From Pirellulales bacterium (GTDB lineage Bacteria; Planctomycetota; Planctomycetia; Pirellulales; JALHPA01), in assembly GCA_033762255.1 (NCBI GenBank), contig JANRLT010000020.1:62001-126000 (forward strand): a DNA stretch of 64,000 nucleotides. Reading direction: 5' to 3'. The notes under the pieces were generated by a model. That model saw only the letters and a list, made by a program, of their open reading frames with translations. It was not told where the DNA came from and searched no databases. Every line of letters starts with the position of its first letter. Position 1 is the stretch's first letter. This document shows, piece by piece, positions 294 to 26,547 of the stretch. Position numbers and translations under genes: made by a program.

Positions 294-317
294 CGGAACT
301 CTGGCGAGTTCCGCTAC
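294..317 (-). repeat. GTAG-headed 24-nt palindrome supplying the hisD stop codon
   Basis: On the minus strand GTAG is followed by arm CGGAACTC, loop GCCA and arm GAGTTCCG. The TAG of the head (316-314) is the stop codon of hisD. The hairpin could also act as a weak terminator or an mRNA 3'-end protector inside the hisD-hisC spacer. Confidence 0.75.
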
Positions 318-1693
318 ATTTCACCCACGCGCACATCCACGCTATACCGGTGCGCGGTTAGCCCCTCTTTATCCGCCAGGGCGCGGATATCGTCCGCCAC
401 GGCCGCCAGCCCTTCGGCGGTGTATTGGATCACGCTTTTAGTTCGTAAAAACTGTAGCGCGGATAACCCGCTGGCCCAGCGGGCGGTGCCGCTGGTGGGG
501 AGCACATGCGACGGCCCCGCGGCATAATCGCCTAAGGCCACCGGCGAATGCGGCCCCACAAAGACCGCTCCGGCATGGGGAATATGCGGCACCAGTTGTT
601 CGGCATGGGCACAGGCAATATGCAAATGCTCGGGGGCGATGTCATTAGCCACGGCGCAGGCTTCCGCCGCGTCCCGCACCAGGATGAGCGCTCCGTAATC
701 CGCCAGCGCTTGCCGAGTCAGTTCTCCGCGCGACAAACGCCTGCACTGCCGATCCAACTCCGCCGTAATGGCATCCAGCAGCGGCGCATGCCACGTTATT
801 AAGATGCTGGCGCCGGGGGAATGTTCGGCCTGAGCCAGCATATCGGCGACGGTCTGGTCAACGGGCGTGGTTTTATCTGCGATGACCACCACTTCGCTAG
901 GCCCCGCGATCGAATCAATATCCACCTCGCCATAGACCCGCCGCTTGGCCAAGGCCACAAACAAGTTTCCCGGACCGACGATTTTATCCACCTTGGTTAA
1001 CTGGCCGCTGCCGTCGGCTGTTCCCGCCAAGCCATACGCCAACGCGGCCACGCCCTGGGCTCCACCTAGGCGGTACACTTCGGTCACGCCCAACTCATGG
1101 CAAGTGGCCAATAGGTCGGTATTGTACGAACCAAAGGGGGTGGGAGGGGCGATCACGGCGATTTCCTCCACGCCCGCGGCCAAGGCGGGCACAACCGTCA
1201 TGAGCACAGTCGAGGGATACGCCGCCGCGCCCCCGGGAACGCATACGCCAACCCGCCGCAAGGGTAAAAAGCAGTGCCGCAGTTCTCCCCCGTGCGGAGC
1301 TGGCACGCGCACATCGCGCGGCAAGAGCGCCGATTGAAATTGCCAAATCCTCTGCCGAATGTTGCGAATTGCGGTCAAAAACGCCGGACTGGCGGCCGCG
1401 TGGGCTTGTTGTAATTCCGCTTCTTTGACGCGCAGGGACTGGGCGGAAAGCTGCGCTTGATCGAGTAGCTGTGAATACCGCAGCGCGGCGGACAACCCCT
1501 GGTCGCGAACATCGTCGCAAATACGGGCGACAACCGCCGCGGGAGAAAGCGCTTCGCCAAAGACAGCGAATGTGCGTTGCCGCCCCGAGTCGCTGACGAC
1601 TTCGCCACGCGGGCTGAGTTTTTCACGGAGCGCGGCAATGAGCGACGCGGCGTCGTCCTGGCGGGTGTCGATGCGGGGAATGGTCAGGGTCAT
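314..1693 (-). CDS. hisD: Histidinol dehydrogenase
   Basis: HisD catalyses the last two steps of histidine synthesis, oxidising L-histidinol to L-histidine with two NAD+. The 459-residue length is normal with a slightly long N-terminus. Recognisable blocks are VGVCVPGGAAAYPSTVLM (about 148-165), GGAQGVAALAYG (210-221), VDKIVGPGNLFVALAKRR (235-252), IAGPSEVVVIAD (262-273), QAEHSPGA with the zinc/catalytic Gln288 and His291, NDIAPEHLHIA, and GDYAAGPSHVLPTSGTA near residue 400 with the second histidine region. The ATG at 1693 gives the full-length enzyme. It is followed by hisC on the same strand. The TAG stop is contributed by a palindromic repeat. Confidence 0.97.
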   Translation of the reverse strand: MTLTIPRIDTRQDDAASLIAALREKLSPRGEVVSDSGRQRTFAVFGEALSPAAVVARICDDVRDQGLSAALRYSQLLDQAQLSAQSLRVKEAELQQAHAAASPAFLTAIRNIRQRIWQFQSALLPRDVRVPAPHGGELRHCFLPLRRVGVCVPGGAAAYPSTVLMTVVPALAAGVEEIAVIAPPTPFGSYNTDLLATCHELGVTEVYRLGGAQGVAALAYGLAGTADGSGQLTKVDKIVGPGNLFVALAKRRVYGEVDIDSIAGPSEVVVIADKTTPVDQTVADMLAQAEHSPGASILITWHAPLLDAITAELDRQCRRLSRGELTRQALADYGALILVRDAAEACAVANDIAPEHLHIACAHAEQLVPHIPHAGAVFVGPHSPVALGDYAAGPSHVLPTSGTARWASGLSALQFLRTKSVIQYTAEGLAAVADDIRALADKEGLTAHRYSVDVRVGEM

Positions 1694-1817: not shown

Positions 1818-4466
1818 TCACCTCCCCGCCGCTTTTTCTAGTTGTACCACCATTCGCTCGACCCGCTGCGACCATTTTTCGGTCGAAAGCTTCGTGGTCT
1901 GAATACGCGCCGCCCACAGCGGAAAGGCCAACGGTGTCAAACGCGGACAAAACTGAATTACCAGGTTGGCTTGGGTCATTCGCGCAAGCGCGGCCCGCAT
2001 CCGTTCAATTTCCAACTGCTGCAACAGGACCTCGCGCCGCGCTTGTTGCAAGAGCATGTTTTGCGGATCATACTCGCGAAAGACGTCATAAATGAGGCTG
2101 GTGCTGGCCTGCAGTTGCTTGGCGGTTTTGCTGGCGCCGGGATAGCCGGTAACGACCAGTCCCGCCACTCGCGCGATGTCGCGAAACTGCCGCTTGGCCA
2201 GTTCACTGACATTTAAGCAAGCCAGCAGGTCTTCTTCCAACTCCGCCGTGGAGAACAATTTTTGCCACTGCTCCGCCAGGTAGTCCAGCGGAATATTTGA
2301 CAGCAGTTCCACGCCATAATCATTCGGCGTGATGGTGATGGAACAGGGTGTTTCCCGCGAAATGCGGTACGCCACCAGCGAGGCGATCCCCTCGTTCACC
2401 GCCCGCCCCTCGAATGGGTAAAAAAAGAGCTGGTGCCCCTCGCGCACTTTGGCCCGTTCAATGAGTAGCTCACGCGGTCCGGGCAGAATCGACCAGCTAC
2501 GTTGCAGCTCTAAGATGGGCCGCACGCACGCCAGTTCGGGACTGGAAAAATCCCCCGCGCGGGCCAGATCAAATTGCCTGCGCACCGCGCGGGCCATTTG
2601 CGTGGAAAGGGGAAAGCGGCCCCCGTCCCAACGGGGGACCACGCCTTCCTGGCGTTTACTTTTCTTGCAATAAACGGCCATATCCCGCAAGATCACAAAC
2701 TCCAACGGCCGTCCGGCGAACACAAAATGATCGCCGGGTCGCAGCCGCGCGATAAAGCCCTCTTCGATCGTCCCCAGCGTCGCGCCGCTCATCAATTTGA
2801 CCACTAGCGAAGCTTCACTGGAGATAGTGCCAATGGTCATCCGCTGCAACCGCGCAACCTGCGGATTTGCTGCCACGTAGCGGCCGTTGACTTGAACAAG
2901 TTTGGCAAATTGCGGATATGCCTGCAATGATTGTCCGCCGCGCACGGCAAAGTCGAGCGCCCATTGCCATTCCTCGTCGGTGAGTTGCCGGTACGCATAC
3001 GTCGTGCGCACCTCCGCCAGTAGCTCCTCCGGCGCAAAGCCGGTGGAAATGGCAATGGTAATGAGATGCTGCACCAAGACATCCAGTGGACGGTCCAGCG
3101 GTTCTCGCCCCTCGAGATCGCGAATCTCCGCCGACTGCCGCGCGGCGGCGTACTCCACCAATTCAAACGCGTGCGTCGGCACACAAATCACGCGACTGGT
3201 CGCGCCGGGCTGGTGCCCGCTTCTACCGGCGCGCTGCAACAGCCGCGCGATCCCCTTGGGACTTCCTACCTGCAGCACCTGGTCCACCGGAGAAAAATCC
3301 ACCCCCAGGTCCAGGCTGGACGTGCAGACCACGCACTTAAAATCGCCTCCCCGCAGCCGCGCTTCCACATATTCGCGCAATTCGCGGTCGAGCGACCCAT
3401 GATGCAGGGCCATGCTTCCCGCCCAATCGGGCCGGGCATGCAAAATCGCTGAAAACCAAATTTCGCACTGGGAACGAGTATTGGTAAATACCAATGATGA
3501 TCGGGCCTCTTCAATCTGTGCCACCACCCGCGGCAATAGCTTTAGCCCCAGATGCCCCGCCCAAGGAAAACGTTCGATATCCTCTGGCAAGATCGTCTCG
3601 ATCGCTAGCGATTTGTCCGTCTCGCCGGAGATAATCGCCGCGGCCCGCGTCTGAAGTGGGTCCGAGTCGGATGGGACGCCCAACAGCACGTACCGCGCCA
3701 GTTCCAGGTTAGCCAGCGTGGCGGACAGGCCCCAGGTACGCAGGCCGGGCAGCCAGCGGCGCAACCGCGCCAGGCATAGTTCCGTCTGGACGCCGCGTTT
3801 GGTCCCGAGTAGCTCGTGCCATTCGTCCACCACCACCGCGCGTAGTGTTTTAAACAACTGCGGAGCTTCGGGATATGACAACAGCAGGGACAAACTTTCC
3901 GGCGTGGTAACGAGCGCCGACGGCAGCCGCGCGCGTTGTTTTTTACGCATGGTCTGCGTGGTGTCGCCAGTGCGCAGCTCCACCGACCAGGGGAGCTGCC
4001 AGTAGGCGACCGGTTCCTGCAGCGTGCCGACCAGGTCATTGGCCAAGGCCCGCATCGGCGTGATCCAGAGCGCGCGCAGCGGTTCCGTCGTTTCGCGGGA
4101 TTGCTTTTCTTCAGTGGGGCAATCCTGGTCGATGTGCGGTGTTGTCGCCGTATGTTTACTAGTGGAAAACAGCGGCTGATCCGGGATCTCTCCGCCTGTG
4201 ATCCGCGCGGCGGCTTGTTCCTCCTGCAAATACTCCTCGATGATGCCTAACCACGCGGCGTAGGACTTGCCCATTCCGGTGGCGGCATGAATGAGGCCGC
4301 TTTCACCATCTAAAAACGCCTGCCAAGCGGCCAATTGAAAAGCAAACGGCCGCCAACCCCGCGCGGCGAACCACTCCGCCACCAAAAATGGGGTTGGTGG
4401 CCGCGCGGGTGGTTGCCGTTGCGGTGCGGGAGAGCGTTTTGGTTTTGCGGCGGGCTTCACATACAT
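1818..4466 (-). CDS. Lhr-like DEXH helicase, probably the ligase-associated DNA-repair type
   Basis: An 882-residue superfamily 2 helicase. Walker A is AATGMGKS (61-68), the Walker B box is DEWH (214-217), motif III is LSAT and motif VI is QRAGRSGH; a C-terminal Lhr-type extension follows. The arrangement best matches the bacterial 'ligase-associated DNA damage response DEXH box helicase' family, though the usual partners (ligase, exonuclease) are not next to it. An acidic/Thr-rich insertion at about 81-128 separates motif I from motif Ia. I placed the start at the ATG at 4466 (MYVKPAAKPKRS). The frame stays open upstream, but that part reads through a tandem palindrome array and encodes only repeats of GTGTVPATM and related peptides, so it is not protein. 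Likely role: 3'-5' ATP-dependent DNA translocation in repair (inference from family). Confidence 0.88.
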   Translation of the reverse strand: MYVKPAAKPKRSPAPQRQPPARPPTPFLVAEWFAARGWRPFAFQLAAWQAFLDGESGLIHAATGMGKSYAAWLGIIEEYLQEEQAAARITGGEIPDQPLFSTSKHTATTPHIDQDCPTEEKQSRETTEPLRALWITPMRALANDLVGTLQEPVAYWQLPWSVELRTGDTTQTMRKKQRARLPSALVTTPESLSLLLSYPEAPQLFKTLRAVVVDEWHELLGTKRGVQTELCLARLRRWLPGLRTWGLSATLANLELARYVLLGVPSDSDPLQTRAAAIISGETDKSLAIETILPEDIERFPWAGHLGLKLLPRVVAQIEEARSSLVFTNTRSQCEIWFSAILHARPDWAGSMALHHGSLDRELREYVEARLRGGDFKCVVCTSSLDLGVDFSPVDQVLQVGSPKGIARLLQRAGRSGHQPGATSRVICVPTHAFELVEYAAARQSAEIRDLEGREPLDRPLDVLVQHLITIAISTGFAPEELLAEVRTTYAYRQLTDEEWQWALDFAVRGGQSLQAYPQFAKLVQVNGRYVAANPQVARLQRMTIGTISSEASLVVKLMSGATLGTIEEGFIARLRPGDHFVFAGRPLEFVILRDMAVYCKKSKRQEGVVPRWDGGRFPLSTQMARAVRRQFDLARAGDFSSPELACVRPILELQRSWSILPGPRELLIERAKVREGHQLFFYPFEGRAVNEGIASLVAYRISRETPCSITITPNDYGVELLSNIPLDYLAEQWQKLFSTAELEEDLLACLNVSELAKRQFRDIARVAGLVVTGYPGASKTAKQLQASTSLIYDVFREYDPQNMLLQQARREVLLQQLEIERMRAALARMTQANLVIQFCPRLTPLAFPLWAARIQTTKLSTEKWSQRVERMVVQLEKAAGR

Positions 4467-4505
4467 ATTGTATCGAGTTACCCCCCTTAGGCCACTGGGA
4501 ATAAT

Positions 4506-4760
4506 GTAGCAGGCACCGTCCTCGGTGCCGTCCCAGTGCCGTACACATCGTAGCAGGCACCGTCCCGGTGCCGAAACATCGTAGCAGGCACCGTCCCGGT
4601 GCCGAAACATCGTAGCAGGCACCGTCCCGGTGCCGAAACATCGTAGCAGGCACCGTCCCGGTGCCGTACGCATCGTAGCAGGCACCGTCCCGGTGCCGAC
4701 GCATCGTAGCAGGCACCGTCCCGGTGCCGACGCATCGTAGCAGGCATCGTCCCCGGTGCC
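4506..4760 (+). repeat. Tandem array of eight GTAG-headed palindromes
   Basis: Copies start at 4506, 4550, 4581, 4612, 4643, 4675, 4706 and 4737. Each is a 24-nt unit: GTAGCA, arm GGCACCG, loop TCC, arm CGGTGCC, final G. Spacers are mostly 7 nt (AAACATC three times, then ACGCATC), giving a 31-bp period. The first unit has an extra partial arm; the last has two changes. The array begins 40 bp upstream of the helicase start, so it probably lies in the helicase 5' region. The 7-nt spacers rule out CRISPR. Confidence 0.9.
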
Positions 4761-24712: not shown

Positions 24713-25546
24713 ATGAATCGCAGCTTTGCAATTGTACTTTGGTGCTGGACGACTTTCATGGTGGCGCCGCTCTGGCTAGCTAGCTCTCGTCCCGCGAACG
24801 CCAGCCTGGTTTATTCAAACGACTTTGAAAGCAATACGACGGGCTTTACGAACGCGGGCGTGCTGCCGGCACTGACACGGACGAACCTTCCCACTGATGG
24901 AGGCGGATTAGCCTCGCCGAATCAATCGCAGTGGCTGGGCCGCCTGGGTCATAATATTGCCAAGAGCACCGCGAATAAAGAAATTGTGAACCTGTCTGTT
25001 GCGGGACTGACACCGGGGCAGTCGTATATCGTCGCCTTTGATTTGCTCATCGGCGCGTCCTGGGACGGGGCGGCTAACGGTTACGGCACCGATGCCTGGT
25101 ACTTTTCTGTTAATGGCACGCGGCTGGTGGACACCATGTTCTCTAACGGAGACCAAGGCCGGGACTACGGCGCGTATTCTCCCCAGCGTTACAGCGATAC
25201 GCATTTTGCCGACCCCAACTTGCCGGATGTTGCCGCTTTTACGGGGGCGGAGTTTTCCCGGCGAGAAGGCCCCGGCTACAGCGGTTATTATGGCATTTAC
25301 TATTTCAGCCGCGGCGCAAACAACCCGACTTTAACTTTTACGGCAACCGCCTCGACCGCCACGCTCGAGTGGGCTCGATTTAGCGGAGGTGTGAATTTTG
25401 GCGATAGCGGCGACGAGTACTGGGCACTGGATAACGTGGCCGTAACCCTCGTGCCAGAACCGTCCAGCGTTGCGCTGCTCGCCTCGACCTTGGTGGTATT
25501 CGGCGGAATATGCCTGCGTCGACGGCGACGCGTGGTGGTATCGTAG
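24713..25546 (+). CDS. PEP-CTERM sorting-domain protein
   Basis: 277 residues. The signal peptide covers 1-31 (ending PANASL). The body is a beta-rich extracellular domain (DFES-x-T-GF, LTPGQSYIVAFDL, WALDNVAVTLV) like choice-of-anchor or lectin-like folds. The C-terminal PEP-CTERM signal VPEPSSVALLASTLVVFGG is followed by the RRRRR stop, recognised by an exosortase that cleaves and relocates the protein. The role of the body is unknown. A second PEP-CTERM protein lies at 46.6 kb. Confidence 0.9.
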   Translation: MNRSFAIVLWCWTTFMVAPLWLASSRPANASLVYSNDFESNTTGFTNAGVLPALTRTNLPTDGGGLASPNQSQWLGRLGHNIAKSTANKEIVNLSVAGLTPGQSYIVAFDLLIGASWDGAANGYGTDAWYFSVNGTRLVDTMFSNGDQGRDYGAYSPQRYSDTHFADPNLPDVAAFTGAEFSRREGPGYSGYYGIYYFSRGANNPTLTFTATASTATLEWARFSGGVNFGDSGDEYWALDNVAVTLVPEPSSVALLASTLVVFGGICLRRRRRVVVS

Positions 25547-25639
25547 GGCGAAACTGGTTCGGCCAATAATAGGCTAAATATACGGCCAACGGTGCCAATA
25601 CGAACGCGGCGGATCACGATCCGGCCCACAAGGCTTTCA

Positions 25640-25663
25640 CGGCACCGGGACGGTGCCTGCTAC
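25640..25663 (-). repeat. GTAG-headed palindrome, identical to the 4.5-kb array unit
   Basis: The minus strand is identical to the 24-nt unit of the 4506-4760 array. It is followed by TGAAAGCC, shared with the copy at 25808. Confidence 0.85.
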
Positions 25664-25807
25664 AATTGCAGCGCGTCGCTGCAAAACTGTTTGGCGATAG
25701 AGTCGCCGCTTACAGATTGGCTCCTCCGTGAACCTCGGTCTTTCCTCCGTGACTCCGTGTTAGATGTATTTTCTAGTCTGGCTGGACAGCGCTGGTTCTG
25801 GCTTTCA

Positions 25808-25831
25808 CGGCACCGGGACGGTGCCTGCTAC
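25808..25831 (-). repeat. GTAG-headed palindrome supplying a stop codon
   Basis: The same 24-nt unit as at 25640 and in the array. Its TAG (25830-25828) is the stop codon of the unknown protein gene 25828-26547. Confidence 0.88.
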
Positions 25832-26547
25832 ACAAACCGGTGATTCTCATCATCCCGACCGTAGCCCGGTTCGATGCCCAGCCGCATTTTTAGCTCCTCG
25901 AACGCGCTGGCAAATGTATCGCTCGACGAATGGACGTGTTCCGCCTCGGTGATGAATTTCATCTGGTCGTCGCAGGGGAGACAGCGGTCCCGCAAAACCC
26001 CCTCAAACTCGCGCAACTCATGCCCATAGGCGATGATCAGCTTGTGCTCGTCGAATTGCACTTCCAGGGGGATTTGCGGATTGAGCACCGCGATCCCCGT
26101 GCAACCGTCATGCGTCAGCAATTCCTCATAATCGTACAGAATGCTTTTTAGCACCGGCAGGTCGATGTGCTCGCGATAGAGGTCGACATGTCCCCGCTGG
26201 TCGCGATTGTGGCTGGTCTCCAGGACCACATCGACCACATTTCCCAACGGATCAAGCATATCTAGAAATGTGTCAAACAGCTCGGGCAAAGTGACCGCCG
26301 CCATGAGGACCGGCACTTTGCTTTTTGACTGGTCGTCCTGGTAGCAATCATGCCGAAAACCCGCGCGCGGCACCACTTCCAGGCTATACGCCGGGCGGAT
26401 CGCCTCGCTCAAAATGAATTCGCCATATTTGGCGACGTTCAAATGCGTTTCCAGCTCGGCTTCGCTCAACTGCTCAAAGCTGCTGGGCGGACGATTTCCA
26501 GTACCGTCCCGAAAGACGTTGCGGAAGAACTTCTTCAAAAACCCCAT
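25828..26547 (-). CDS. Conserved-looking hypothetical protein
   Basis: 239 residues, soluble, with no signal peptide. Codon use and the GAGG site before the ATG at 26547 support a real gene. The segment DPLGNVVDVVLETSHNRDQRGHVDLYREHIDLPVLKS (about 98-134, quoted in parts: DPLGNVVDVVLETSHN and HVDLYREHIDLPVLKS), and an acidic C-terminus rich in Glu, Asp and His, are the main features. I recognise no domain. The stop codon is contributed by a palindromic repeat, so the last residues may have been changed by its insertion. No operon partners. Confidence 0.75.
   Translation of the reverse strand: MGFLKKFFRNVFRDGTGNRPPSSFEQLSEAELETHLNVAKYGEFILSEAIRPAYSLEVVPRAGFRHDCYQDDQSKSKVPVLMAAVTLPELFDTFLDMLDPLGNVVDVVLETSHNRDQRGHVDLYREHIDLPVLKSILYDYEELLTHDGCTGIAVLNPQIPLEVQFDEHKLIIAYGHELREFEGVLRDRCLPCDDQMKFITEAEHVHSSSDTFASAFEELKMRLGIEPGYGRDDENHRFV

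Follow-up and report, generated by a model that had tools for sequence, protein, structure and literature searches.

GTAG-tagged REP palindromes supply in-frame stop codons to genes of a Pirellulales genome

The window, a 64-kb stretch of DNA from a Pirellulales MAG, carries on its minus strand a gene at positions 25828–26547 whose 3′ end reads ...CAC CGG TTT GTG TAG. According to the sequence and its list of open reading frames (ORFs), the TAG stop of this gene (25828–25830) lies inside a GTAG tetramer (25828–25831, minus strand) that belongs to a GTAG-tagged REP. Two nucleotides (CA) separate the tetramer from a hairpin at 25809–25825 (minus strand) with a perfect 7-bp stem and a 3-nt loop, GGCACCG-TCC-CGGTGCC, the full element being GTAG-CA-GGCACCG-TCC-CGGTGCC. 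The hairpin is part of a 33-bp unit, TGTAG...GTGAAAGCC (25800–25832, minus strand), which is repeated exactly and in the same orientation at 25632–25664 (minus strand), 168 bp off and away from any stop. Across the whole genome this REP has 29 near-exact copies, and its 19-nt core, CAGGCACCGTCCCGGTGCC, is common to 28 members of the REP library built from a 2.7 Mb sample of the assembly. As in other members of the GTAG REP super-family, an unpaired GTAG stands 0–2 nt before a short palindrome, and the element conforms to the published rule of a GTAG 0–2 nt from a 7–20 nt stem with a loop of 2–5 (PMC6006769). It does not qualify as an intrinsic terminator, the stem being followed on the gene strand by GTGAAAGCC, in which a T-run is absent.

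The gene encodes a conserved Pirellulales protein of 239 aa and unknown function, for which a Pfam search gave no match. It shows a strong coding signal under a hexamer model and has orthologs in 57 of the 58 genomes searched (its own included), found throughout the Pirellulales with identities of up to 70%. Given the coding signal and the orthologs, the stop belongs to a real gene.

A preliminary description of this DNA reported that the TAG of a GTAG hairpin serves as the stop of this gene, on which sequence, ORF and stem agree, and that hisD ends in the same way on a stem of another family. The hisD gene (314–1693, minus strand, PF00815) does take its stop from the TAG of a REP, CGGAACTC-GCCA-GAGTTCCG (294–317, minus strand, GTAG at 317), and its stem, CGGAACTC/GAGTTCCG, differs from the GGCACCG/CGGTGCC of the focal gene. 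Both of the two cases counted in 64 kb are therefore real, but a third was overlooked. On the plus strand, gene 24758–25546 has as its stop the TAG at 25544–25546 of a degenerate REP, GTAGGGCGAAACTGGTTCGGCC (25543–25564, plus strand, GTAG at 25543), which a family-based scan assigned to the GGCGGAAC stem family as a degenerate member with 16 of 18 letters matching. This gene and the focal gene are convergent and both stop on REPs, hence REP TAGs bound the intergenic region on both sides.

Elsewhere in the window, an array of eight GTAGCAGGCACC REPs with a spacing of mostly 31 bp occupies positions 4506–4760 (plus strand), where a local flank, CGAAACAT or CGACGCAT, has been amplified with each REP unit. 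The array overlaps the start side of a long ORF at 1818–4685 (minus strand), the true start of which is probably near 4385.

The wider REP population was surveyed in 2,705,738 bases (49%) of the 5.47 Mb, 72-contig assembly, a non-random draw consisting of long contigs and contig starts, in which 1,945 genes were called for this analysis with the hexamer model. The best protein relatives of the genome are Pirellulales MAGs, the nearest being only ~70% identical in protein. Of all tetramers at the feet of hairpins, GTAG was the most enriched, by 27.6-fold where the gap was 0 and by 18.8-fold where it was 2, and 237 GTAG hairpins were found in the sample compared with 18–77 for eight control tetramers. 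As a strict hairpin filter overlooked degenerate REPs, including the copy at 25543, we adopted a family-based scan in which at least 14 of 18 letters match a REP family. This detected ~295 REP-like elements, including degenerate ones, in several stem families. Only 7 of the 295 are intragenic, and 51 lie no further than 20 nt from a sense stop; the elements are dispersed, multicopy and mainly intergenic at the 3′ side of genes, as in the GTAG REP super-family. REP pairs were frequently tandem (n = 111), with 35 outward pairs (GTAGs outside) versus 14 inward. The 87 loci of relatives (472 kb) were REP-poor: their 16 GTAG hairpins did not exceed the counts for control tetramers, and one of them lay at a stop.

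Ten Y1_Tnp matches were detected in the genome, at least five of which have GTAG hairpins nearby. At one of these loci (L054), a REP, GTAGTAGGCACGG, lies ~260 nt upstream of an ORF with intact HVH and YMHQNPV motifs; its stem is a sister of the focal family and matches the focal stem inexactly. This arrangement of GTAG hairpins and Y1_Tnp matches resembles that of GTAG REPs accompanied by their RAYT transposases, and we infer that RAYTs moved the REP copies of this genome. At a further Y1_Tnp match (L059, C65:129918–130130), direct GTAGTGGCGACTTTTAGTCGCC-type hairpins flank both sides and inverted GTAGCGGCGAGG copies are also present, forming a REPtron-like composite.

The placement of REPs was expressed as d, which measures how far the TAG of a GTAG REP lies from a predicted stop on the same strand. 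For 17 REP-like copies in the 2.7 Mb sample, the TAG is itself the stop of a predicted gene (d = 0). The 34–35 REPs at d = 1–19 amount to ~1.84 per nt, which is the local-density expectation for d = 0, giving a ~9-fold excess over the neighbouring density (17 versus 1.84, Poisson P ~2e-11). Perfect and near-perfect hairpins alone gave 13 copies at d = 0 against 1.5 expected from local density. The suspicion voiced in the preliminary description, that stop placement is non-random and not merely as frequent as proximity to gene ends would predict, is thus borne out by the genome-sample count. A small cluster of six REPs was also observed at d = 5 (C5:4760, C7:235086, C14:36887, C14:74980, C14:132097 and C20:126953), all of them reading TAA-A/T-GTAG across different stem families, which perhaps hints at a junction preference.

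The d = 0 class pools all insertions upstream of a native stop that bring their TAG in frame. When random insertion was simulated, 32% of stop-disrupting events ended on the REP's TAG and the others ran through the hairpin, an expectation of two out-of-frame copies for each in-frame copy. The sample contained no run-through REP in the last 30 nt of a gene (d = −30 to −1) and only two further inside (d = −90 to −31), versus 17 at d = 0, and in-frame copies therefore make up 17 of 19 (about 17:2) compared with the simulated 32% (P ~3e-7). This frame bias requires either insertion that is mechanistically in frame or the loss of out-of-frame copies. We infer that it stems from selection rather than insertion geometry, selection on frame being the simplest cause of the d = 0 excess.

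The explanation we favour, as probable though well short of certain, is that REPs of the RAYT type insert at the 3′ ends of genes, where selection purges those copies which destroy a stop without replacing it. GTAG-tagged REPs would be palindromes that are not autonomous but belong to the kind that RAYT (Y1 tyrosine) transposases mobilise, and new copies would pile up just beyond gene 3′ ends with the GTAG end towards the gene. A REP landing in or beside the last codons would replace the native stop; it would be kept if its own TAG were in frame and ended the protein cleanly, and lost if the frame were left running through the hairpin. The coincidence with stops would then be the product of 3′-end insertion and purifying selection on frame, not of a stop-recognising transposase.

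Conserved-domain loss was not detected in any of the REP-stopped genes with a family model. HisD matches 393 of 393 positions of TIGR00069 with the match ending at residue 455 of 459, CorA 320 of 320 positions of TIGR00383 (residue 399 of 405) and RpiB 138 of 138 positions of PF02502 (residue 140 of 142). Similarly, the PF06439 protein covers 187 of 187 model positions (residue 232 of 235), the PF03372 protein 225 of 225 (residue 330 of 341) and TGT 355 of 357 positions of PF01702 (residue 378 of 384). The match ends of concatenated C-terminus searches, conducted on protein only, suggest that the homology of relatives breaks off no more than a few residues before the REP stop.

The preliminary description had proposed two causes, insertion that favours stop codons or GTAG-like sites and selection that keeps stop-giving copies, and it is the second that fits the counts better. 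A transposase that inserts the hairpin at stops or at existing GTAGs, so that native GTAG stops become REP stops, appears unlikely to us, even though it would account for the exact peak at d = 0, the d = 5 cluster (six of six TAA-N-GTAG) and the 51:1 orientation bias beside stops considered below. At stops the ratio of REP to non-REP GTAGs is 17:202, compared with 34:83 at d = 1–19, that is, REPs per available non-REP GTAG are ~5-fold lower at stops (P ~7e-7). This lower REP share at stops than downstream disfavours GTAG targeting, and GTAG stops as the insertion target were rejected on these counts. Furthermore, RAYT studies place cleavage at CT or CA dinucleotides, with GTAG guiding the choice of site (PMC8266576).

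Alternatively, a REP could first have come to lie a few codons downstream, with the native stop later lost and translation continuing to the REP's in-frame TAG. REP density does peak 1–60 nt after stops, and an in-frame REP TAG is often the next one encountered. The length of the focal protein also points this way, its tail extending 15 residues past a conserved RLG while 93 orthologs have a mode of 6 (range 2–20). The focal protein is thus ~9 residues longer than the ortholog mode and therefore does not look truncated by the insert. However, 12 of the 93 orthologs have tails of at least 13 residues and lack the focal REP. Such a route would moreover require that up to 17 genes each lost their native stop by a mutation of their own, and it predicts approximately twice as many out-of-frame extensions through REPs, of which almost none are present. 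We consider it improbable for these reasons, although for the focal copy itself it is equally likely that a downstream TAG was captured once the native stop had been lost and that the REP was inserted at that stop.

Insertion at gene 3′ ends followed by selection on frame, the reading we prefer, leaves the orientation of the copies to be accounted for. Of the 52 REPs that follow a stop by no more than 20 nt in the 2.7 Mb sample, 51 are GTAG-first and only one is hairpin-first. The RNA hairpin is not the reason for this 51:1 bias, since a palindrome gives the same RNA hairpin either way. Copies located after an intact stop share the bias and are beyond the reach of selection on stops, hence some insertion bias must exist too. 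Possible sources are a strand-specific mode of insertion into single strands that are exposed, or dimers of REPs whose GTAGs face outward, and orientation is the least explained part of the REP picture. A speculative and rather doubtful suggestion is that REP insertion in this lineage is coupled to gene expression, with the RAYT using the non-template strand where it is exposed at the 3′ ends of genes. If true, this would explain the predominance of GTAG-first copies even where the native stop is intact, and also the frequent origin of REP stops.

The same orientation counts bear on a functional explanation, in which stop and hairpin together form a useful 3′-UTR module, for mRNA end protection or ribosome-linked control, and are retained by selection. 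REPs are indeed found directly after stops, and for E. coli REPs no more than 15 nt from a stop a reduction of translation has been reported (cited in PMC12306157). Yet an RNA hairpin is blind to orientation and hairpin-first copies are nearly missing near stops. Stem families also vary freely across the stop-coincident genes, and a REP stop recurs in only one other of the 93 focal-gene orthologs. We therefore regard this explanation as very unlikely. In a different genome (G033, locus L182), the focal gene's ortholog independently ends on GTAG-ATGCGGCA-TCT-TGCCGCAT, a different stem, and this recurrence speaks for the explanation we favour. That GTAG stops and hairpins, both being common, merely coincide by chance is so improbable that it can be dismissed: although 219 of 1915 genes have GTAG as their stop context, REP-family sequence is present on 17 of the 219 GTAG stops compared with 4 of 4089 GTAGs inside genes (P ~3e-19), counts which refute it, and each of the 11 remaining stop contexts has 0–1 case of a stop with a hairpin behind it.

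Taken together, the numbers show that a mobile-type repeat can routinely provide the genes of its host with a working stop while doing them little apparent harm. The biases in frame and orientation provide a direct handle on how REPs choose their sites and which insertions survive.

Our analysis is in agreement with earlier work on GTAG REPs. Di Nocera, De Gregorio and Rocco (2013) state that GTAG REPs "often provide" the TAG stops of flanking ORFs, place REPs close to gene 3′ ends and report for R. baltica (Pirellulales) both several families of GTAG REPs and numerous genes for tyrosine transposases (PMC3733652). REP-supplied stops were therefore already published in 2013, and the gain of the present analysis is quantitative. 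The frame and orientation biases appear unquantified so far, a literature search of sources other than subscription journals having found no frame or orientation statistics for GTAG REP stops.

As described in the available text of PMC3733652, the GTAG REP super-family resembles the elements studied here in its terminal GTAG, its short palindrome, the presence of several stem families per genome, its location 3′ of genes and its tandem and inverted dimers, a likeness of general features and not a stem-by-stem match to the family figure of that paper. Relative to that text, a genome count against a null model and tests of frame bias and orientation are found only in the present analysis. REPtrons (TnpA-REP, groups 2 and 3; PMC8266576, PMC2817692) likewise carry Y1 HUH ORFs beside GTAG palindromes, and group 3 REPs are short perfect palindromes as seen here. 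Our results differ, however, in that the activity of the transposases and their pairing with REP families are only putative and no RAYT adjoins the focal copy. Finally, the E. coli REP/BIME palindromes also lie within 15 nt of stops (available text of PMC12306157 and its reference 17), but according to that text they follow the stop, whereas the REPs of this Pirellulales genome contain the stop codon itself.
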